DNA from: a virus
Reading direction: 5' to 3' (one strand)
IMG/VR virus record: IMGVR_UViG_3300020119_000042
Location: 1 to 43,340 of that record
DNA length: 43,340 nt
In this document: positions 28,303-43,291 of the stretch, in pieces
How the letters are laid out: each line of letters begins with the position of its first letter
How positions within the stretch are numbered: position 1 is the stretch's first letter
Notes under the pieces: generated by a model
Seen by the model: the letters and a program-made list of their open reading frames with translations, nothing else
Database searches by the model: none
What the model was told of the DNA's origin: nothing
Made by a program: the position numbers and the translations under genes

Positions 28303-28705
28303 CGACCGTCACGCGCCGGCGCATCAGTTCATCCACTTCACGGGCAATCACCCCGCGCCGGTTCAGGTCACGGAATTCGTCGGCGCTGATCTTGCTGCGG
28401 GCATAGCGTCCGCAGACCTCGTGCGTGGCGGCGATCTCATCCTCGGTGGGCTTCCAGACAGGGCCGGTGTAGCCATCATCGGCCATCACCAGTTTGACTT
28501 CGCCCTTGCCGGTCACAACCCACAGATGGGCGCCGCTGGTGCGGATCTCGTTCAGCCCATCCGCGATATCGTACTCGTATGGCCGGTTGGTGCGGCGGAT
28601 GATCAGCGTGGTGCCGGGGAACTTGGAGAGCGGGATGACCAATTGCTCGCCCGGCTTCATATCCCGGCCCGGAAGCGATCCCGATGTGTCGTTAAGCCTG
28701 CCCAT
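28295..28705 (-). CDS. Hypothetical protein (136 aa)
   Basis: Not recognised. An N-terminal beta-rich half (PGEQLVIPLSKFPGTTLIIR; EVKLVMADDGYTGPVW) is followed by a helical C-terminal half (TEDEIAATHEVCGRYARSKI; VIAREVDELMRRRV). The start is the ATG at 28703-28705, with GAGGG five bases upstream, inside the end of the preceding gene. The upstream part of the frame belongs to that gene. Confidence 0.55.
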   Translation of the reverse strand: MGRLNDTSGSLPGRDMKPGEQLVIPLSKFPGTTLIIRRTNRPYEYDIADGLNEIRTSGAHLWVVTGKGEVKLVMADDGYTGPVWKPTEDEIAATHEVCGRYARSKISADEFRDLNRRGVIAREVDELMRRRVTVDA

Positions 28706-29456
28706 AAGTTCCCTCGACCAATCGCGTGAATGACTTGTCCTGGAGGATGAAATCGAAGTCGGCCCGCCATCCCCGCTCGTTCTGGCCGTGCATCCATGGT
28801 GATCCGCGAATGCAGGCAAATGCCCGCTGCCACGCCTCCAGTTCGGGATATTGGCGAAGGCGGGCTTGGGCTCGGCGGCGACGGCTATCGGTCAGCTTGG
28901 CGACGGTCGGGAGCCCACACTGGCGGGCAAGGTCGTTCCATTCGCCCACCAGTTCGGTGACCGTGAGCGGAGTGTCGTCGTCATTTTCAGCCGAAACCGG
29001 CGTGGGGGACATTTCACCGCTAGGTGAAATGATAGGGGGAGAAGGGTTCAAGGGAGGTTCGGGTAAAGCTGCTTGACTGGTGGCGTCATCCTGTTTGACC
29101 GGTGAAGCTACTTGACCGGTGAAGCTGCTTGACTCCTTCCGGGCCTTGGCGCGGGCAGCCGAACCGACCAATGGAAGCGCCTCCAAGCAGGCGACCATGA
29201 TGGCGTATTCGACGGTGTAGCCGTTCGCGCTCCTACGCTGTCCAACCTCGATCAGGAGCCCATCTGAGATCAGCGATTTGATCGTGGCGAGGATCGTCTG
29301 CTTGCTGGTGCACAGCTCGTCCGCCATCGTCTGCTTGGACGCATAGATCCCGGTTCCGTCATCGCTCGCCTTATCGGCAAGCAGGACCATCACGGCCTTG
29401 CGCGACATGCTGCCGACGTTGCGGGAATAGGTGGTCGAGATCAGGTGATTGCTCAC
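28692..29456 (-). CDS. Winged-helix replication-initiator-like protein
   Basis: A 254-residue protein. The N-terminal ~90 residues form a winged-helix domain (SMSRKAVMVLLADKASDDGT; YASKQTMADELCTSKQTILA; LISDGLLIEV), as in phage replication proteins of the O/DnaD-related kind. A proline-rich linker (about 125-155) leads to a C-terminal domain (EWNDLARQCGLPTVAKLTDS; RLRQYPELEAWQRAFACI; WRADFDFILQD) typical of helicase-loading or initiation proteins. It is the best replication initiator candidate because no polymerase, primase or helicase is visible. RusA follows directly with a 4-base overlap. Confidence 0.72.
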   Translation of the reverse strand: MSNHLISTTYSRNVGSMSRKAVMVLLADKASDDGTGIYASKQTMADELCTSKQTILATIKSLISDGLLIEVGQRRSANGYTVEYAIMVACLEALPLVGSAARAKARKESSSFTGQVASPVKQDDATSQAALPEPPLNPSPPIISPSGEMSPTPVSAENDDDTPLTVTELVGEWNDLARQCGLPTVAKLTDSRRRRAQARLRQYPELEAWQRAFACIRGSPWMHGQNERGWRADFDFILQDKSFTRLVEGTYGQA

Positions 29457-30756: not shown

Positions 30757-31274
30757 GCTGCCCTCCCAATGAATTGAGCGGGCGCGTTGCTATGGGCATC
30801 GAACAGATACCAGCAGCAGTTGTCCTTGCCGGTGAAGGGCGAATCCTTGATCCACTTGACCCGGCCAACGCTGACCACCTTGCGCAGTAGCGGCATGAAC
30901 GGCGCAGCCTGCCGAGTGTGCATCCAGTCAGCATCGAACAGCAGCCATGTCGGAGCCTGCACTGACAGGTGCGCAATCAGCGGATGCAGTACATCGCGCG
31001 ACCACGGCGGATTGGTAATGAAGCAATCGATGTTGCCCGTCAGCGTGGTTAGCGCGTCCTTCCGGTCAATGTCGGCGCGGCGGGGCTCGATATCCCCCGC
31101 CCGTGCGCAGACGTGGCCGTGGCGGGTAAGGTGATCGACCAGCGCCCCATCCCCTGCGCAAGGCTCGCAGAACCGCGTTGCCGCCGAGAGATATGGCAGC
31201 AGTGGAATCACTGCTTCATAGGGTGTCGGATAGAAGTCGCGCGGGATGCGTTCGAAGTTGCTGCGTTTGCCCAT
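30753..31274 (-). CDS. Small DNA adenine/cytosine N-methyltransferase-like protein
   Basis: A 173-residue class I SAM-dependent methyltransferase domain. The N-terminal FYPTPYEAVIPLL leads into motif I (FCEPCAGDGALVDHL) and the catalytic motif IV NPPW (CFITNPPWSRDVL). No target-recognition domain is seen, as in other short phage DNA N6-methyltransferases. It probably modifies phage DNA to evade restriction, or regulates gene expression. The start MGKRSNFERIPRDFYP directly abuts the upstream gene. Confidence 0.78.
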   Translation of the reverse strand: MGKRSNFERIPRDFYPTPYEAVIPLLPYLSAATRFCEPCAGDGALVDHLTRHGHVCARAGDIEPRRADIDRKDALTTLTGNIDCFITNPPWSRDVLHPLIAHLSVQAPTWLLFDADWMHTRQAAPFMPLLRKVVSVGRVKWIKDSPFTGKDNCCWYLFDAHSNAPAQFIGRAA

Positions 31275-31750
31275 TAGGCGGCCCTCCGGCGCTTAGCCGA
31301 GACAATCGCCGCGCGCCGTTCGAGGCAGGCCGCCAGCAGCGCATCGTTCTCCGGCTCACTGGAAATCAGTTCGTTATCGGTTTCCTTGACCCCGCCCTCC
31401 GAATGCTCGGCGCGGCTTTGGCCGATGCGATGGATCGCAGCCCCGGCGGCGGGGATGATGTCGCCAGCCTGGGGCACCAGCGGGACCGCCATGTAGCCTA
31501 GCGCGGCCAGCAGTTCGTCCAGCGCATGGGGATCGACCGTCAGCAGGTTGAACGCGCAGGCAAGCCCAAGGGTGCTTTCCTCGTCGCGGGCGCGACGGAT
31601 GGTCTTTTCATCGCAGCCCGTCTCCAGCGCAACGCGTGATGGGCCGTGGACGTGGCAGGTACGGATCATGCCAGCGGCAAGGAGGTGGCGGGCGTCGGCG
31701 TCCGTCAGCCGGCGATGGTTCGGGCGGACTTGGTTGCGGCGGTCAGGCAT
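31274..31750 (-). CDS. Probable HTH regulatory protein (158 aa)
   Basis: The N-terminal half has an HTH-like segment (TGCDEKTIRRARDEESTLGL), and LTVDPHALDELLAALGYMAV follows. The middle is alanine/glycine-rich and the C-terminus is basic (ACLERRAAIVSAKRRRAA). The order resembles early phage regulators of the CII kind, but I cannot fix the family. The start is the ATG at 31748-31750, overlapping the upstream stop (ATGCCTGA). Confidence 0.55.
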   Translation of the reverse strand: MPDRRNQVRPNHRRLTDADARHLLAAGMIRTCHVHGPSRVALETGCDEKTIRRARDEESTLGLACAFNLLTVDPHALDELLAALGYMAVPLVPQAGDIIPAAGAAIHRIGQSRAEHSEGGVKETDNELISSEPENDALLAACLERRAAIVSAKRRRAA

Positions 31751-32117
31751 TGATGGCCTCATGGGCAATTACGGAAACAGGGTTGCACCAGCGGTAGCCG
31801 CCGACCACGCCTTCGCGCTTGCCGAGGAACGGCACCGGCAGGCCCAGCTTGGGCAGCACCTTGTGGCGGAGCTGGCTGACGTGGGCGGCGATGTTGTCGT
31901 TGCGATCGCTGAACGGCATGAGGTTGGCCAGCGCCTCGGGAGTGACGACCTCGCCTTTCGCCTGCGCCAGCGCATGGAGTATCCGCGCCTTGACCGGGGA
32001 AATGGGATGGGCTTCGCTCTTGAAGGCGACCGCGCCGCGAGGGTCGATCATCCAGCCATCAGCGTAGTAGCGAACGCCGAAGTCTGCGCCGTAGCCACAG
32101 GCAGGACACATCTCCAT
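31743..32117 (-). CDS. Zinc-ribbon plus OmpR-type winged-helix protein
   Basis: A 124-residue protein. An N-terminal half zinc ribbon (MEMCPACGYG, Cys4 and Cys7) is followed by a domain resembling the DNA-binding part of OmpR/PhoB regulators: PISPVKARILHALAQAKGEV, VTPEALANLMPFSDRND, IAAHVSQLRHKVLPKLG and GGYRWC. There is no receiver domain. In the early leftward operon, it is probably a transcription regulator. The start is the ATG at 32115-32117, overlapping the upstream stop, with AGGGGG before it. Confidence 0.68.
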   Translation of the reverse strand: MEMCPACGYGADFGVRYYADGWMIDPRGAVAFKSEAHPISPVKARILHALAQAKGEVVTPEALANLMPFSDRNDNIAAHVSQLRHKVLPKLGLPVPFLGKREGVVGGYRWCNPVSVIAHEAINA

Positions 32118-32323
32118 CACAGCCACCCCCTGAGCGCGGTCCAGCAGCGCGAGAGAACGCCCGGGCGCGATTCAGCCGTAGGCACCGGCTTGATCGGGAT
32201 CGAAATCCAGCCCCCGTCTTTGGAGTATCGGGTAGCTGTGGCCATATGCCACGTGAGCAAGGCCGAACATGCCCCGACGATCCCGACGAATACCCAGCCT
32301 TGCCAAGTCACAACTGCCCCCAT
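32117..32323 (-). CDS. Small single-span membrane protein (68 aa)
   Basis: MGAVVTWQGWVFVGIVGACS; hydrophobic span at about 9-24, then a polar, proline-containing tail (WISIPIKPVPTAESRPG) and a tryptophan-rich end. Between Cro and the winged-helix gene. The ribosome region contains a GCCCC/GGGGGC hairpin that could affect translation. Function unknown. Confidence 0.5.
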   Translation of the reverse strand: MGAVVTWQGWVFVGIVGACSALLTWHMATATRYSKDGGWISIPIKPVPTAESRPGVLSRCWTALRGWL

Positions 32324-32400
32324 CTCAGGCCCCCAGCGGGGCGGCTATTTTGTGCAGCGGCTAGGTGCCGATGCTCCCCGTTTGGTGTGTTCCTGGGTCA

Positions 32401-32631
32401 TCATGCGGCGGCGCCTTGCTGGGGCGCGGGATAGATGTCCGGCCGCCACTTGTGCCGGTCGATGCCGGTGGCCGCTTCAGCCTTCAGGACATACTCAGCG
32501 GGAAGGGGCGCACCCTTCCGCAACCAGTTGCTGATGTTCTGTTGGCTCGTGCCGATTGCCTCGGCGAACCGGCTCTGGTTGCCCTCGAACGGCTTGGCCG
32601 CGATGGCGCGCTGAAGGGTGGTGCGTTTCAT
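32401..32631 (-). CDS. Cro-like HTH repressor (YdaS type)
   Basis: A 76-residue protein: MKRTTLQRAIAAKPFEGNQS, then the HTH RFAEAIGTSQQNISNWLRKG and EYVLKAEAATGIDRHKWRPD, a typical YdaS/Cro ending. It is divergent from the LexA-type repressor, the arrangement of a lambdoid immunity switch. The start is the ATG at 32629-32631. The predicted promoter -10 (32640-32645) leaves almost no leader, so the mRNA may be leaderless; an in-frame ATG at 32643 would lie inside the -10. It would bind the ACAA-N5-TTGT operators in the gap. Confidence 0.85.
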   Translation of the reverse strand: MKRTTLQRAIAAKPFEGNQSRFAEAIGTSQQNISNWLRKGAPLPAEYVLKAEAATGIDRHKWRPDIYPAPQQGAAA

Positions 32632-32639
32632 GAGACCGG

Positions 32640-32668
32640 ACATTACAACCGAGTTGTTTGGAATACAA
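32640..32668 (-). promoter_or_regulatory. Leftward early promoter (cro promoter)
   Basis: On the minus strand TTGTAT (32668-32663), a 17-base spacer and TAATGT (32645-32640). Both operators at 32645-32677 overlap it, so repressor binding would block it. Confidence 0.6.
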
Positions 32669-32677
32669 CCCATTTGT
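32645..32677. promoter_or_regulatory. Operator pair, ACAA-N5-TTGT x2
   Basis: Two 13-bp dyads: ACAACCGAGTTGT at 32645-32657 and ACAACCCATTTGT at 32665-32677, centres 20 bp apart (about two helical turns). They overlap the predicted promoters of both cro and cI. The same dyad occurs twice at 34437-34472. A looser match (ACAG-N5-GTGT) lies at 32679-32691. Confidence 0.7.
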
Positions 32678-32682
32678 AACAG
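32654..32682 (+). promoter_or_regulatory. Rightward repressor promoter
   Basis: TTGTTT (32654-32659), a 17-base spacer and TAACAG (32677-32682), pointing to the cI gene. It overlaps both operators, so it would be autoregulated. Confidence 0.5.
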
Positions 32683-32716
32683 CTTTGGTGTCAAAAGTTT
32701 TGTAGCACTCGCGGAG

Positions 32717-33400
32717 ATGCTACCCGACGATCCTGGTGAGGCTGGCCTGTGGGCCAAACGTGAGCGTGAGAGGCGAGGCTTCTCCGCGCAGGAAGTCGCC
32801 AACCGCATCAACGCGCTGGCAACTGAGGACGGCGATCCGACGCGCGTTAGCCAGCAAGTGGTGTCTAAATTCGAGAAGGGCGACAACAAGCGGTGGCCCG
32901 CATGGACCCGCTACATTCCCCGCGTGCTTGGCAATAGCGATGCCGAGACGAAGGAGGACAAGCACCTCCACCTCGCGCTCGAAGACGCCAGCGTTCAAAT
33001 AAAGCAGTTACCAACGTGGGCTGGTCTGGGCACTGGTGGGACTGGTGAAGATGACCCCGGGCAGGTCAGCTTCTCGCGCGACTTAATCGAACGCGAGTTA
33101 CGGGCTGATCCGTCGCAATTGCTGGCGATGATCGCCGAGGGCAATTCAATGGAGCCCGACTTCAGGGGTGGCGACCAGATCCTCGTGGATACTCGCCGGA
33201 AGTCACTCGCTCAGCCCGGGGCATTCTGCCTGTGGGATGGCGACGGACACGTCATCAAGTTTCTGGAGAAAGTGCCCGACAGTGAACCGCCGCGCGTTCG
33301 ACTGATCAGCGCGAACGGACTTTACGAGCCTCATGAGCGGCTGTTGGACGAGATTAATCTGATCGGCCGCGTGGTCTGGTTTGGGCGCCGCGTTCAGTGA
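32717..33400 (+). CDS. CI/LexA-type phage repressor with S24 peptidase
   Basis: A 227-residue repressor. The N-terminal HTH lies at about 10-70 (LWAKRERERRGFSAQEVANR; RVSQQVVSKFEKGDNKRW). A linker holds Ala102-Gly103 (TWAGLG), a possible self-cleavage site. The C-terminal S24/LexA domain has Ser144 in EGNSMEP and Lys181 in HVIKFLE. It should dimerise, hold the lysogenic state and be inactivated by RecA in the SOS response. The ATG at 32717 has only a poor ribosome site (GCGGAG touches it). The frame is open further upstream through the operators but without a better start. Confidence 0.9.
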   Translation: MLPDDPGEAGLWAKRERERRGFSAQEVANRINALATEDGDPTRVSQQVVSKFEKGDNKRWPAWTRYIPRVLGNSDAETKEDKHLHLALEDASVQIKQLPTWAGLGTGGTGEDDPGQVSFSRDLIERELRADPSQLLAMIAEGNSMEPDFRGGDQILVDTRRKSLAQPGAFCLWDGDGHVIKFLEKVPDSEPPRVRLISANGLYEPHERLLDEINLIGRVVWFGRRVQ

Positions 33401-33419
33401 TCTGGATAGGGAGGCGGAT

Positions 33420-33674
33420 GTGAGGATGGCTGAGTGGCGCTGGAATATGATCGCGCTGACCGCAGGGATGCTGATTTACCCGGCTTACCTTGGCGCTCGG
33501 GCCCGAGGCTTCTGGGAAGTGTCGTTGTTCGCGTTCATCCTCGGCCTCTGCTTCGCTTACATTACCCGTGGAGATACTTCGCACATTCCGCGGTCAGCGC
33601 GTGTTCTGTTCTCCCTGGTTTGGTGCAGCTTTCTTGTGGCGGTCGCTTACGGCGCCGGCCGCCTCATTGCGTAG
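33420..33674 (+). CDS. Small multi-span membrane protein beside the repressor
   Basis: An 84-residue protein with three hydrophobic segments (ALTAGMLIYPAYLG; VSLFAFILGLCFAYI; RVLFSLVWCSFLVAVAYGAG). I chose the GTG at 33420 because GGGAGG lies 5-6 bases upstream; an ATG two codons later is possible. It directly follows cI and would be expressed in lysogens, as are superinfection-exclusion proteins. The exclusion role is inferred. Confidence 0.6.
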   Translation: MRMAEWRWNMIALTAGMLIYPAYLGARARGFWEVSLFAFILGLCFAYITRGDTSHIPRSARVLFSLVWCSFLVAVAYGAGRLIA

Positions 33675-33750
33675 CCCCACCCCCTGACCAGATGGAATTC
33701 GCGCAGGTCGGCAGCGGTGAAATTGCTTTCCCGGAAGGCGGCGAGCGAGG

Positions 33751-33832
33751 GGCTGGGACCCAGCCGAGGTTAATGACGTTTAACCCAAGAAGCTTGCCTC
33801 GCTGGTAGGCAGTGTGCATATGCGATTCGCAT
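33751..33832. promoter_or_regulatory. Cluster of three palindromes and a promoter
   Basis: In the gap before the HicB-like gene: GGCTGGG-A-CCCAGCC (33751-33765), GGTTAA-TGACGT-TTAACC (33768-33785) and ATGCGA-T-TCGCAT (33820-33832). A promoter TTGCCT (33794-33799), 17-base spacer, CATATG (33817-33822) runs into the third palindrome, a good place for autoregulation by the downstream pair. No T run follows the first hairpin. Confidence 0.5.
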
Positions 33833-33856
33833 GAACGCTAATTGGAGGATGGTTTT

Positions 33857-34126
33857 ATGAATGCCGTTTGCCACCCTCTCACGCTCGAGAGGTACGGAAA
33901 CAAGGGGTGGTTCCACCTGTCTTGTGACGATATTCCGGGGATCAATCTCTGTGGCCCTGATCTAGATGATCTGTTTGCAGGCGCAGAAATCGCCATCGCT
34001 GAGCTGCTGCGCCGCCGTGGCGTTAGTGTCCAGCGCGTGGTGATAGAGACTGTACCTGATGCCCAGACGGAAGCGCCGGTTTGGGCTGCGTCAAACCATC
34101 CGATGGCGATGGCTATCGCCGCCTGA
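33857..34126 (+). CDS. HicB/DUF1902-like antitoxin-type protein
   Basis: An 89-residue protein with the partial RNase H-like fold typical of HicB: LTLERYGNKGWFHLSCDDIP, GINLCGPDLDDLFAGAEIAI, AELLRRRGVSVQRVV. The C-terminal tail (TEAPVWAASNHPMAMAIAA) has no clear DNA-binding motif. GGAGG lies 8 bases before the ATG. The next gene resembles HicA. In HicAB systems HicB neutralises the HicA mRNA nuclease and represses the operon. Confidence 0.6.
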   Translation: MNAVCHPLTLERYGNKGWFHLSCDDIPGINLCGPDLDDLFAGAEIAIAELLRRRGVSVQRVVIETVPDAQTEAPVWAASNHPMAMAIAA

Positions 34127-34128
34127 GC

Positions 34129-34365
34129 ATGATCGACCCTGCCGAGCCGGTCATATACTCGGCAGATCAGTTCTGGGCCATCTTGGGTGAATACGGCGTC
34201 GAACTAGACGACTACACGGCTGACGGTCGCTCCCGCTTCGTTCGGCCGCCCGGAGGTGATTGGCAAGTTGTCTCCGTTCATGAGCAGTATCCAGATTATG
34301 CCGTCGACCGCATGCTGATCCTGATGGGCATCATGCCTCCGCCGACCTACGACAATCTAAACTAA
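34129..34365 (+). CDS. HicA-like small protein, degenerate
   Basis: A 78-residue protein: YSADQFWAILGEYGVELDDY, then ADGRSRFVRPPGGDWQVVSV, HEQYPDYAVDRMLILMGIM. The order helix, strand with RP-G, V-x-H and a final helix with ILxxxGI matches the dsRBD-like HicA fold. The catalytic histidine normally in G-S-H-H is absent (GRSRF), so it may be a non-toxic or diverged relative. It begins three bases after the HicB-like stop and is followed by a strong terminator. The gene order is reversed compared with the usual hicA-hicB. Confidence 0.5.
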   Translation: MIDPAEPVIYSADQFWAILGEYGVELDDYTADGRSRFVRPPGGDWQVVSVHEQYPDYAVDRMLILMGIMPPPTYDNLN

Positions 34366-34392
34366 CCGACCCACCCTCTCAGGGTCGCAGAG

Positions 34393-34425
34393 AACCGCCT
34401 CGGGAAACCGGGGCGGTTTTCGTTT
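34393..34425 (+). terminator. Intrinsic terminator ending the immunity operon
   Basis: AACCGCCTCGG (34393-34403) pairs with CCGGGGCGGTT (34408-34418) across a GAAA tetraloop, with one T-G wobble, and is followed by TTCGTTT. It separates lysogenic transcripts from the rightward early promoter. Confidence 0.8.
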
Positions 34426-34436
34426 GTGGTTTAATT

Positions 34437-34477
34437 ACAAATTAGTTGTTGACCCATATACAAACGGGTTGTAACAA
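34437..34477 (+). promoter_or_regulatory. Rightward early promoter with two operators
   Basis: ACAAATTAGTTGT (34437-34449) and ACAAACGGGTTGT (34460-34472) repeat the ACAA-N5-TTGT dyad of the cro/cI gap. The promoter TTGACC (34449-34454), 17-base spacer, TAACAA (34472-34477) overlaps both sites. Repressor binding would shut off the whole rightward early operon. Confidence 0.7.
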
Positions 34478-34502
34478 GGCTCCAGCAACACGGAGCCGAA
34501 CA

Positions 34503-34901
34503 ATGGCAACTCAGCTTTCCCCCGCACTGGCCGACTGGTTCGATACCGCCAAGGCCCGCAAGGTCATCGCGCAGATCGAGCGCGCCGACTTCACCTTCGA
34601 CTTCCACCGCAACTTCATCCGCTCGGGCGGTGAGCGCGACTGGCTCCCGGAAACCTCGCGCGGGTTCGAGATCGAGGAAGAACTGGAGGAGCTGCGCCGG
34701 GACTTCATCGCCGACCTGACCGGCTTTCATCCTGACGAGCACACCACCGAAGCGCAGATGGATGACTGGATCGCAGCGGATCGCTTGCAGGCCACCGTAT
34801 CCGAAGTGATCGCCGCCGCCATTCGCCAGCGTGGCCATCTTGGGTGGGTCCAGTGGGAAGCCTCCAAGGAACTTGCCGCACGTAACCGGGAGGGCGCGTG
34901 A
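34503..34901 (+). CDS. First gene of the rightward early operon, hypothetical (132 aa)
   Basis: Not recognised. MATQLSPALADWFDTAKARK, an acidic helical protein with FEIEEELEELRRDFIADLTG in the middle and WVQWEASKELAARNREGA at the end. The start has CGGAG about 7 bases upstream and follows the operator-controlled promoter. As the first product after induction it could be a host-takeover or regulatory protein. Confidence 0.65.
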   Translation: MATQLSPALADWFDTAKARKVIAQIERADFTFDFHRNFIRSGGERDWLPETSRGFEIEEELEELRRDFIADLTGFHPDEHTTEAQMDDWIAADRLQATVSEVIAAAIRQRGHLGWVQWEASKELAARNREGA

Positions 34902-35176
34902 TGTTCACCCCGAAGATCGTTCTCGATGTGATCGATCGTCTCGACAGCCATCCTGACGAATGGCGGCTAGTGCTGTCGCGCATTGTCCACCGGGATGGCT
35001 GCTCCGTTTGGATCGGTAACCGCACCTACGGGATGGACATCAGCATCGGCGATCATGTCGAGTGGGGCAACGTCACGTTTCTCTCGACGTTCGGCCTTAG
35101 CGTCCCCCATCATCGACTGCGCCGCGCCGCTGATCGCTGGTTGGCCCGCCACCGCTTCGGGGAGCGCGCCGCATGA
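34901..35176 (+). CDS. Small hypothetical protein (91 aa)
   Basis: MFTPKIVLDVIDRLDSHPDE, a helix, then beta strands (CSVWIGNRTYGMDISIGDHV; VTFLSTFGLSVPHHRLRRAA) and a basic end. The start is the ATG at 34901, overlapping the upstream TGA. No recognised family. Confidence 0.6.
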   Translation: MFTPKIVLDVIDRLDSHPDEWRLVLSRIVHRDGCSVWIGNRTYGMDISIGDHVEWGNVTFLSTFGLSVPHHRLRRAADRWLARHRFGERAA

Positions 35177-35343
35177 TCGCCCTGCGCAACTGGTGGGCAA
35201 CCAGCAACCCCTTCGCCCTGAACGAACGCGCCCACGGCCCCATGCGCCGCTCTGACAAGGTGGTGTTCATCCTCACTGCAACCGTGGCGATCTGGCTGGT
35301 GCTGTTCCTGTTGGCTGCTTTCTACGTGATGGGGGGTCTGTGA
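35173..35343 (+). CDS. Small membrane protein (56 aa)
   Basis: MIALRNWWATSNPFALNERA, then a basic turn (MRRSDK) and one strong hydrophobic span (VVFILTATVAIWLVLFLLAA). ATGA/TGATG overlaps on both sides tie it into the operon. Function unknown. Confidence 0.6.
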   Translation: MIALRNWWATSNPFALNERAHGPMRRSDKVVFILTATVAIWLVLFLLAAFYVMGGL

Positions 35344-35522
35344 TGGCTGACATTCTTCCATGCCCCTTCTGTGGAAGCGATAGGGCCCGCACCATTCATA
35401 TTCGTGACGGACGCAAAGTTGCCTGCCCCTGTGGTGCTTGCGGAAAACCAGAGTTTCACGGCCCGTTGAACAGGCCTGATGCCGAAACAAGGGCGGTCAC
35501 TGCATGGAATCAACGCGCATGA
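35343..35522 (+). CDS. Lar-like zinc-ribbon protein (59 aa)
   Basis: MADILPCPFCGSDRARTIHI, then ACPCGACGKPEFHGP and AVTAWNQRA. The CPFCGS and C-x-C-G-x-C motifs with the final AWNxR are the pattern of the Lar restriction-alleviation family and related phage zinc ribbons. Lar proteins modulate host type I restriction; many phage copies are untested. Start at 35343, overlapping the upstream stop. Confidence 0.72.
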   Translation: MADILPCPFCGSDRARTIHIRDGRKVACPCGACGKPEFHGPLNRPDAETRAVTAWNQRA

Positions 35523-35677
35523 CCGCCGCTCTTCGTATCTACCACACCCACCGCCCCTCTCTTGTGAGCGCTCCTGTTGCTCCGATGGATGGAGAGACGG
35601 AGCGTTTCTGGACCCTCCGCAAGCAGGGCGTCCCCACCACCAGCGAATACCTCGCAGCACGAAAGCTAAACCGATGA
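35519..35677 (+). CDS. Small hypothetical protein (52 aa)
   Basis: MTAALRIYHTHRPSLVSAPV, then ETERFWTLRKQGVPTTSEYL. ATGA overlaps with the Lar-like gene before it and the recT gene after it. No recognised family. Confidence 0.55.
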   Translation: MTAALRIYHTHRPSLVSAPVAPMDGETERFWTLRKQGVPTTSEYLAARKLNR

Positions 35678-36582
35678 ACGCTATCGTCCCCCACGTCGCC
35701 CCCCCGTCTATGACCATTTCCGAGGTCGAGCGCGTGGCCATAGCCATCGCCAAGGGCGGCCTGTTCGGCTCGAAAGACCCCAACGCGGTCTTGACGCTGT
35801 GTCTGCTTGCCCAGGCCGAGGGACAGCACCCCGCCGTGGTGTTCCGCGATTATCACATCATCAGCGGCAAGCCTGCCAAGAAGGCCGAAGCGATGCTGCG
35901 CGACTTCATTTCATCGGGCGGAAAGGTCGAGTGGCACACTCTGTCCGATGACACCGCCGACGCCACGTTCAGCCACCCCTACGGTGGTACTGTCCGCATC
36001 GACTGGACCATGGACCGCGCCCGGCAGGCAGGCATCGCCAACCCTATGTGGAAGAAATACCCACGCCAAATGCTCCGCAGCCGGGTCATCAGCGAGGGTG
36101 TCCGGTCGGTCTGCCCGAGCGCCACCAGCGGGCTATACGAAGTGGGCGAGGCGCAGGACATTGTTGGCGAGACTGCCCCGATCAACGGGCAGTTTACGGA
36201 GGTGCCTGAGGGACAGAGCCACGGCGATGACCACGGCGAGGTTAGCCCTCAGGCACCAGTCAAGCGCGAGAACTGGGGCGGGCGCTACCCGACCAAGACG
36301 GCGCTGCGCAAGGCTCGCAACGAACACCACGCCGAGCTTGAGCGGCTTGCCATCGAGGGCACGTTCGATGACCTCGATGCCTACCTGACCTCACCGGAAT
36401 ACACCGATTTCGTGACGACTGCTGGCGAGCATTTTCCGCTGTGGCTGGAAGGTGAAATCCCGCCCGAAATGGCCGAGGCCATCCCCCCTGAATACGTCCA
36501 GACCTTCCGCCTAGAGCAGAAGGCCCGCGACCTGATCGCCCTGCGCGGCAACGTCCCCGGTTACCAAGAGGAAGTGAACTAA
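35674..36582 (+). CDS. RecT-family single-strand annealing protein
   Basis: A 302-residue RecT-type recombinase that anneals complementary single strands in phage recombination. The N-terminal ~150 residues match the family ([80 protein letters not shown]). The C-terminal third is acidic and variable ([20 protein letters not shown]). The start is the ATG at 35674, overlapping the upstream TGA. SSB follows directly. The usual partner exonuclease is not seen. Confidence 0.83.
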
Positions 36583-37028
36583 TGGCTGGCAGTGTCAACA
36601 AGGTAATTCTCATAGGCAACCTCGGCGCTGATCCTGAGGTGAAGTCCTTCGCCAACGGTGGGCGCATCGCCAACCTCAGGATCGCCACGTCGGAAAGCTG
36701 GAAGGACCGCAACACCGGGGAACGCAAAGAGCGGACCGAATGGCACAGCGTCGTCATCCAAGGCGATGGCCTGGTGGGCGTGGCTGAGCGGTATCTGCGC
36801 AAGGGCTCGAAAGTTTACATCGAAGGCCAGCTTCGCACGAGGAAGTGGCAAACCTCCAGCGGCGAGGATCGCTACACCACGGAGATCGGCGTCGGCCATA
36901 ACGGCACCTTGACCATGCTCGACGGATCGGGCGGCAATCAGACCGAACAGCGGCCGCAGGAGCGCCAGCCGGAACCCCAAGGTGCAGGCGGATTCGCCGC
37001 TGACCTCGACGACGATTTGCCATTTTAG
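36582..37028 (+). CDS. ssb: Single-stranded DNA-binding protein
   Basis: A 148-residue SSB. The OB fold is complete: [20 protein letters not shown], then [58 protein letters not shown] disordered Gln/Pro/Gly linker leads to the C-terminal acidic tip DDDLPF, which recruits repair and replication partners. The ATG overlaps the recT stop by one base. Confidence 0.96.
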
Positions 37029-42314: not shown

Positions 42315-42477
42315 TCTCCGCAAGGCCCGCGAGAGCGGCAATCTCGACCAGTTCGCCAAGGATCACGAAGGCGACGCCCCCGGCGACGCCGACGCCTTCA
42401 ATCGCGCTGTGGCTTCAATGGCCCGAAAGTCGAAAGAAGCTCCGGCAGCATCACGGAAGCGCAATCGCGACGGTTGA
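42307..42477 (+). CDS. Small charged protein facing the transposase (56 aa)
   Basis: MIDLRKARESGNLDQFAKDH, then DADAFNRAVASMARKSKEAP and a basic end (ASRKRNRDG). I recall near-identical small ORFs next to IS1595/ISXO2-type transposases in alphaproteobacteria. It overlaps the membrane-protein gene by 8 bases and runs antisense into the last 80 bases of the transposase gene. It may be an accessory of the mobile element. Confidence 0.6.
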   Translation: MIDLRKARESGNLDQFAKDHEGDAPGDADAFNRAVASMARKSKEAPAASRKRNRDG

Positions 42478-43291
42478 AGCGGTATTCCGCTTCCTTCGCA
42501 TACTTCCAGAGGTGCTTGCCGCTCACGTGAATGTGAGTGCCGGAGATCGACCGCTTAAGCTGCGCCCAAAACCCTTCGATGCCATTCACGCCGCCCCCGT
42601 TCGAGGTGGTGAACTGGCCCTTGTTGTGACGCACGGTCACGTGATTGAAGCCGAGCGTGTCGAGGCGGCGATATGAGCCGAACTCGTCGGTGGCGACGGT
42701 GGTGCCGGGGTGCACGTTGTCCAGCACAAGCCGTTCCATCGGTTCGCGGTGACGGGTGGTAACGACCGTGGTGACGACCTCGCCGCCACGTTCCAGCATA
42801 CCGACAACCACGTGCTTGTTGCCCTTGTAGCCGCTGCCCTTGCCTTCGACCGAACCGCCGATCAGCGTCTCGTCGATCTCCACAACCCCGCCAGCGCCGC
42901 CAAGCAGATTATCGCCGTCAACGTCGGCCATGTGTTCGCGGATCAGCGAGGCCATGCGCCACGCGGTCTTGTAGGTCACGCCGAGCTGGCGTTGCAGTTC
43001 CTTCGCCGCCACGCCGTTGCGCGTCGTGGTGAACAGGAAAATGGCATAGAACCACAGTTGCAGCGGCGTCCGGGTCTGCTCGAACGGGGTGCCGACAGTC
43101 GGGTGCAGGTGATGCCCGCACCACTGGCAGGAGTAGGCGCGCTCGGCCTTGATGCGGAACCACTTTGAAGGCCGATCACACGACGGGCAAGTGTAGCCCT
43201 GACCGAACCGGACCTCGAACAGGTGAGCGAGGCAAGCCTCGTCGTCCGGGAACTGTTTGAAGAACTCGCGGATGGTCTGGGGCTTGCTCAT
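42398..43291 (-). CDS. IS1595-family (ISXO2-like) transposase
   Basis: A 297-residue DDE transposase. An N-terminal zinc ribbon (CPSC at 35-38, CQWC at 55-58) precedes an HTH region (RNGVAAKELQRQLGVTYKTA). The ISXO2-like catalytic core follows: GGVVEIDE (Asp140), TTVATDEFGSY (Asp202) and GIEGFWAQLKRSISG (Glu239). The gene is full length and intact. On the circle its start is at position 78 of the window. The 3' end overlaps the small plus-strand ORF. In this phage it may simply be an inserted IS, or the only enzyme that could move the phage or its cargo between replicons. Confidence 0.92.
   Translation of the reverse strand: MSKPQTIREFFKQFPDDEACLAHLFEVRFGQGYTCPSCDRPSKWFRIKAERAYSCQWCGHHLHPTVGTPFEQTRTPLQLWFYAIFLFTTTRNGVAAKELQRQLGVTYKTAWRMASLIREHMADVDGDNLLGGAGGVVEIDETLIGGSVEGKGSGYKGNKHVVVGMLERGGEVVTTVVTTRHREPMERLVLDNVHPGTTVATDEFGSYRRLDTLGFNHVTVRHNKGQFTTSNGGGVNGIEGFWAQLKRSISGTHIHVSGKHLWKYAKEAEYRFNRRDCASVMLPELLSTFGPLKPQRD

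Follow-up and report, generated by a model that had tools for sequence, protein, structure and literature searches.

Four copies of a 13-bp dyad, ACAA-N5-TTGT, very probably serve as the operators of a lambda-type immunity switch in a temperate sphingomonad phage; as a further case of a familiar kind, it is well supported. Judged by its gene order, the switch is of a known type, here laid out in mirror image of the lambda order PL-cI-PR-cro-cII-O. The basis is seen directly: the positions of the sites, their conservation, their linkage to one DNA-binding domain, the order of the genes and the geometry of the promoters. This gives a group of sphingomonad phages a full set of operators open to experiment, and a search of the literature returned no operator study on them.

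Operators and genes of the immunity region

The window, i.e., the whole 43,340-base virus record analysed here, contains four exact ACAA-N5-TTGT dyads, against 0.30 expected from dinucleotide shuffles, and none of 100 such shuffles gives four. All four lie inside two promoter gaps. Two occupy the gap between cro and cI (OR1, 32645–32657, ACAACCGAGTTGT; OR2, 32665–32677, ACAACCCATTTGT) and two lie downstream of cI (promoter-distal OL site, 34437–34449, ACAAATTAGTTGT; promoter-proximal OL site, 34460–34472, ACAAACGGGTTGT); all four sites are further backed by relatives. When the dyads are extended, OR2 and the inner OL site each form a perfect 15-bp TACAA-N5-TTGTA. In a second search of the whole record, the reversed pattern used as a control gave no site and the forward pattern again gave four; with one mismatch allowed, 13 sites are found (6.4 expected). 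The preliminary description had placed dyads at 32645, 32665, 34437 and 34460 with centres 20 and 23 bp apart, and the record search agrees with it on both the positions and the spacings. It had also called for a count of the sites and named many further copies in coding sequence as grounds for refutation; no such scatter exists, as only the four exact copies occur in the record. Among relatives the pair spacing ranges from 19 to 24 bp, with 33 bp, one turn more, in a single locus (L005). Such spacing would fit dimers bound on one face of the helix, yet it is partly set by the promoter itself.

A third, weaker operator, OR3 (32691–32703, TCAAAAGTTTTGT), lies in the cro/cI gap with one mismatch and its centre 26 bp from that of OR2, and was absent from the earlier list. 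When 15 loci are aligned on OR2, the offset +26 departs from the dyad at an average of 1.7 of the 8 positions, where chance would give about 6; besides it, only the OR1 offsets (−20, −23) and OR2 itself stand out. The site is exact in one relative (L022). Because its left half is degenerate among relatives and its right half well kept, OR3 is probably the weakest operator. On this alignment, OR3 is a conserved, predicted third operator of the gap.

The gene cro (P0001, 32401–32631, minus strand) encodes a YdaS-type Cro repressor, whose match to PF15943 (E = 2.6e-13) exceeds the curated cut-off and so places it in the YdaS/Cro family. It also matches phrog_35, a transcriptional repressor, at 3.2e-17 and, weakly in sequence, the solved Cro 3bd1. 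The protein is conserved in relatives and its recognition helix begins with SQQ, although the QQ pair is weak evidence in the case of Cro because it is common in YdaS proteins. The gene cI (P0002, 32717–33400, plus strand) encodes a helix-turn-helix repressor of the S24, putatively self-cleaving type (PF00717, 2.7e-10; phrog_4, 1.1e-21), in which S144 and K181 are invariant. In an AlphaFold model of CI (mean pLDDT 78.5), the recognition helix, residues 46–53, starts with Q46 and Q47, both invariant among aligned relatives. The fold of the model matches structures of the lambda-186 hybrid repressor, lambda repressor, LexA and UmuD, and that of the C-domain matches lambda repressor C-domain structures, the octamer included. 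No solved-structure sequence matches CI at E ≤ 0.01, and the search gave no sequence relation to 434 repressor.

The leftward PR operon includes a CII-like activator (31274–31768, minus strand; phrog_101, 1.2e-5) and an O-like replication initiator (28692–29456, minus strand; phrog_345, 3.8e-24). The rightward PL operon includes a RecT-like annealing protein (35479–36582, plus strand; phrog_561, 2.9e-14) and a single-strand binding protein (36582–37028, plus strand; PF00436, 2.3e-31). CII-type TTGC-N6-TTGC sites occur twice, against 1.7 expected, neither of them near cro, and no Rfam family was found within 31000–36000. An IS1595-type transposase (42398–43291; PF12762, 7.4e-33) also lies inside the phage record.

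Operator and DNA-binding domain in relatives

Relatives were gathered by protein searches from virus contigs and Sphingomonadales genomes; the core set consists of 18 distinct loci whose CI shares this DNA-binding domain (SQQ-type). Out of 1,536 dyads tested (256 four-base half-sites in 6 spacings), ACAA-N5-TTGT ranks first in the cro/cI gap, where 16 of the 18 loci carry it, and again downstream of cI, with 13 loci, or 14 if L029 is counted, whose right pair is 2.0 kb away and just beyond the interval used. Both places carry it in 13 loci (14 with L029), the next-best dyad reaching 5. With the L029 pair included, 54 of the 55 ACAA-N5-TTGT sites of the 18 loci fall within the two regions. The dyad is missing from all 22 loci in which the S24 domain is shared and the DNA-binding domain is a different one, and the operator thus follows the DNA-binding domain; in three of these (L016, L017, L050) the Cro helix departs from SQQ along with that of CI. 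The earlier proposal of shared immunity-regulon operators at both early promoters, largely correct, gains strong support from this comparison, in which diverse relatives have the same sites in the same places and loci with another DNA-binding domain have none.

A reverse scan, in which virus contigs were searched by DNA alone for the PL architecture, returned 36 stretches. In half of them (18, of which ten are new) a CI and/or Cro of this group is encoded; the other 18 have no recognised CI or Cro. Because the 18 with CI or Cro were chosen by their DNA pattern, they bear on the step from DNA to protein and not on the opposite one. The same operators accompany a CI with a different S24 domain in L082, L086, L090 and L092, and a CI without an S24 domain in L081 and L109. 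The collection serves as a natural experiment on the protein domain responsible for the operator sequence: the site is lost where the same peptidase domain is joined to another DNA-binding domain and kept where the same DNA-binding domain has another peptidase domain or none. The repressors of L081 (542–982) and L109 (11302–11784) are short, CI-like and without a recognised peptidase domain; phages of this type may not answer DNA damage in the usual way.

Outside the group, a DNA-level search of named phages gave no match, and the best named CI relatives share less than 35% identity. In the examined stretch of Microcystis phage Mae-JY29, the one named phage with relatives of both CI and Cro, ACAA dyads do not occur in pairs. 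One locus of the group, L008, has ACAA-N5-CTGT throughout and, like the hybrid loci described below, counts as an exception to the simple rule. In four further loci, from host genomes (L114, L115, L116, L117), one to three neighbouring small QQ-type helix-turn-helix proteins (about 87–168 aa) occur with no S24 domain, and no ACAA dyads were found near these tandem genes. The notion that a recognition helix with QQ is by itself enough to predict ACAA was rejected, given these four loci with QQ and no dyads and the hybrid loci L011, L013 and L020 described below. In the genome of Sphingobium chungbukense, away from the prophage found here, three ACAA-N5-TTGT sites stand within 70 bp (G002:C6:213840–213909), possibly the operator of another prophage.

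Promoters, leaders and the proposed switch

Sigma-A promoters of Zymomonas mobilis follow the form TTGNNN-N17-TANNNN, usually with a discriminator of 6 nt (PMC7566282). This organism is a sphingomonad relative, and its rule was adopted here in place of an E. coli-type sigma-70 consensus scan, which found no promoter in the region. The statement in the preliminary description that each pair overlaps the −35 and −10 boxes holds under the Zymomonas rule. At PR (minus strand), the predicted −10 box TAATGT (32640–32645) begins at the last base of OR1, as assigned from the sequence, the TTG-N17-TA rule and the spacing in relatives; the −35 box TTGTAT (32663–32668) lies inside OR2, 17 nt away, with the same geometry in relatives. 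At PL (plus strand), the outer OL site is on the −35 box TTGACC (34449–34454), assigned by the same rule and relatives, and the inner OL site is on the spacer and the −10 box TAACAA (34472–34477), 17 nt from the −35; TTGAC-N17-TA recurs in relatives. The cI promoter, PRM, has no TTG at −35, and its putative −10 box TAGCAC (32703–32708, plus strand), placed by the spacing from TTGTA to the start codon in relatives, is at the edge of OR3.

The ATG of cro is 14 nt beyond the first base of the PR −10 box, and the ATG of cI is likewise 14 nt beyond the first base of the putative PRM −10 box. These distances are largely fixed: from TTGTA to the cI start there are 12 nt in 12 of 15 loci and 10–11 in the others, and TTGT and the cro start are 13 nt apart in 10 loci out of the 12 in which that start was located. 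Shine-Dalgarno matches at both genes are weak, short, absent or abutting the start in relatives. With the discriminator taken as 6 nt, the cI and cro leaders would be about 2 nt long, and transcripts with leaders of at most 5 nt were counted as leaderless in the Zymomonas mobilis study (PMC7566282). The fixed distances suggest that the mRNAs of both repressors (32703–32717 for cI; 32631–32645 for cro), and hence both sides of the switch, are near-leaderless. The distance from the OR2 centre to the cI start is 46 bp in nearly all main-group loci, the window included. This is consistent with OR2 being centred at about −42 to −44 from the putative PRM start point, the position of an activating operator. 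Lambda CI bound at OR2 activates PRM from that position.

Two hairpins border PL. The one between the cI operon and PL (34390–34421, plus strand) is terminator-like and weak evidence alone, as 2 such sites were found against 2.3 expected. The other (34478–34497, plus strand; z −3.4) falls at the very 5′ end of the PL transcript or close to it, and the GGAG in its 3′ arm is the ribosome site of the gene at 34503. Over 15 relatives its mean z is −2.4, and the structure is kept while the sequence changes. It is also seen in L005, L007, L010, L015, L021, L022, L023, L029 and L054; the GGAG of the first gene falls inside the 3′ arm in about eight loci. In L054 the stem is so near the PL −10 box that the 5′ arm may not be transcribed.

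In the proposed switch, CI made by the prophage would bind ACAA-N5-TTGT as a dimer, with one recognition helix per half-site. One operator pair would cover the −35 and −10 boxes of PR, which serves cro, the CII-like gene and replication, and the second pair those of PL, which serves the recombination genes; because the pairs cover both promoters, a single protein could silence them together. Bound to OR2, CI probably activates its own promoter, which has no −35 box. OR3, the weaker site overlying the cI −10 box, would limit cI and is the probable site through which the YdaS-type Cro silences cI during lytic growth. Release of the phage after DNA damage would come about by RecA-assisted cleavage of the S24 domain.

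Other readings concern which protein uses the dyads and whether any does. Since the half-sites supply the TTG of the −35 and the TA of the −10 boxes, the sites might be core-promoter sequence (TTG...TTGTA), palindromic by chance and bound by no repressor. This is scarcely credible: promoter constraint leaves the ACAA half-sites unexplained, in L005 33 bp separate the outer OL site from the inner, with TTGAC unmoved, and the dyad is absent where the DNA-binding domain differs. It is very unlikely that the YdaS-type Cro alone uses the dyads as operators and that CI has other sites. Cro does have an SQQ recognition helix, and in L078 (6526–6630) PR and PL stand back to back with all four operators and cro, with no CI found on the 9.2-kb contig. 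The arrangement looks as if cI had been deleted, a hint, the contig being a fragment, that Cro alone may suffice to maintain these sites. Against a role for Cro only, no other recurrent dyad occurs in the two regions; the distance from OR2 to the cI promoter is kept even in the hybrid loci L011, L013 and L020; and L022 has exact operators though its Cro helix reads TQP instead of SQQ, whereas its CI keeps TQQ.

The hybrid loci, which have the SQQ helix, bear on a division of labor in which CI and Cro read only overlapping subsets of the sites (e.g., Cro preferring OR3 and CI preferring OR1 and OR2) or partly different sites. They carry one ACAA dyad in the gap, at the OR2 position and 44 bp from the cI start, and another palindrome, of the TTAACCAG-N4-CTGGTTAA type, at the PL −10 box, with related half-sites at PR. 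At both promoters the −35 sites are ACAA-type and the −10 palindromes of another type, as if there were two specificities, and those of CI and Cro may have parted in these loci. That OR3 is always the weakest site points the same way. Yet every site of the window is of a single type, and in CI and Cro alike the recognition helix starts with QQ; such a division is rather unlikely here. Slightly better placed, though still doubtful, is the looping that the preliminary description had suggested, in which CI bound to the two clusters would close 1.8 kb of DNA into a loop in the manner of lambda CI. The two clusters flank cI as in lambda, and the C-domain match includes the lambda octamer. Relatives, however, have their clusters anywhere from about 0.75 to 2.7 kb apart, so no fixed loop distance appears to be selected; this variation speaks neither for nor against a loop.

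Within the lambda-type switch favored here, a further proposal has somewhat less than an even chance. An S24-type CI and a YdaS-type Cro, of unrelated folds, would have settled on the same 13-bp ACAA-N5-TTGT through paired glutamines, independently of 434. The operator would itself supply the core promoter, both regulators would be near-leaderless, and the PL transcript would start with a hairpin holding a ribosome site. Such surprises as the predicted switch holds are modest: the operator would lend its bases to the core promoter, the genes to either side would be near-leaderless, and two unrelated folds would share one site.

Comparison with known switches

Apart from the mirror image, lambda has the same gene order and orientation. 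Neither this mirrored order nor the putative activating position of the middle operator figures in the preliminary description. Here, too, repressor and cro diverge with operators in the gap, a second operator cluster is found at the second early promoter beyond cI, the cro operon holds CII-like and O-like genes, and the other operon holds recombination genes. The three operators at PR/PRM, as predicted here, and, by geometry, a middle operator in activating position appear common to both, as do an S24-type repressor and a near-leaderless cI. Lambda has three operators at PL; the window and relatives show two. The sites also differ (17–18 bp in lambda, 13-bp ACAA-N5-TTGT here), as do the YdaS family of Cro, the prediction that cro as well is near-leaderless, and the sphingomonad promoter rule. 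In phage 434, repressor and Cro read ACAA...TTGT operators through a pair of glutamines with which the recognition helix begins, and these operators have 6 central bases. The likeness in half-sites and glutamines is a lead, not a test: the spacing in the window is 5 instead of 6, and the searches made gave no close sequence relation of CI or Cro to those of 434.

The closest experimental precedent is CP-933P of E. coli O157:H7, where the sites bound in the gap by YdaS and by the CI-like PaaR2 overlap (PMC8630535). Its repeats differ, being 18-bp GTTTAGTAA inverted repeats with no ACAA dyads, and unlike the phage described here it is a cryptic prophage whose repressor gene is followed by a toxin-antitoxin operon (PMC8630535). 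It has a PL analogue with operators and analogues of PR and PRM, and its repressor gene was shown to be leaderless (PMC8630535). As in the window, a YdaS-type Cro in this Rac-type arrangement faces a CI-like repressor over a short gap with shared operators (PMC8630535).
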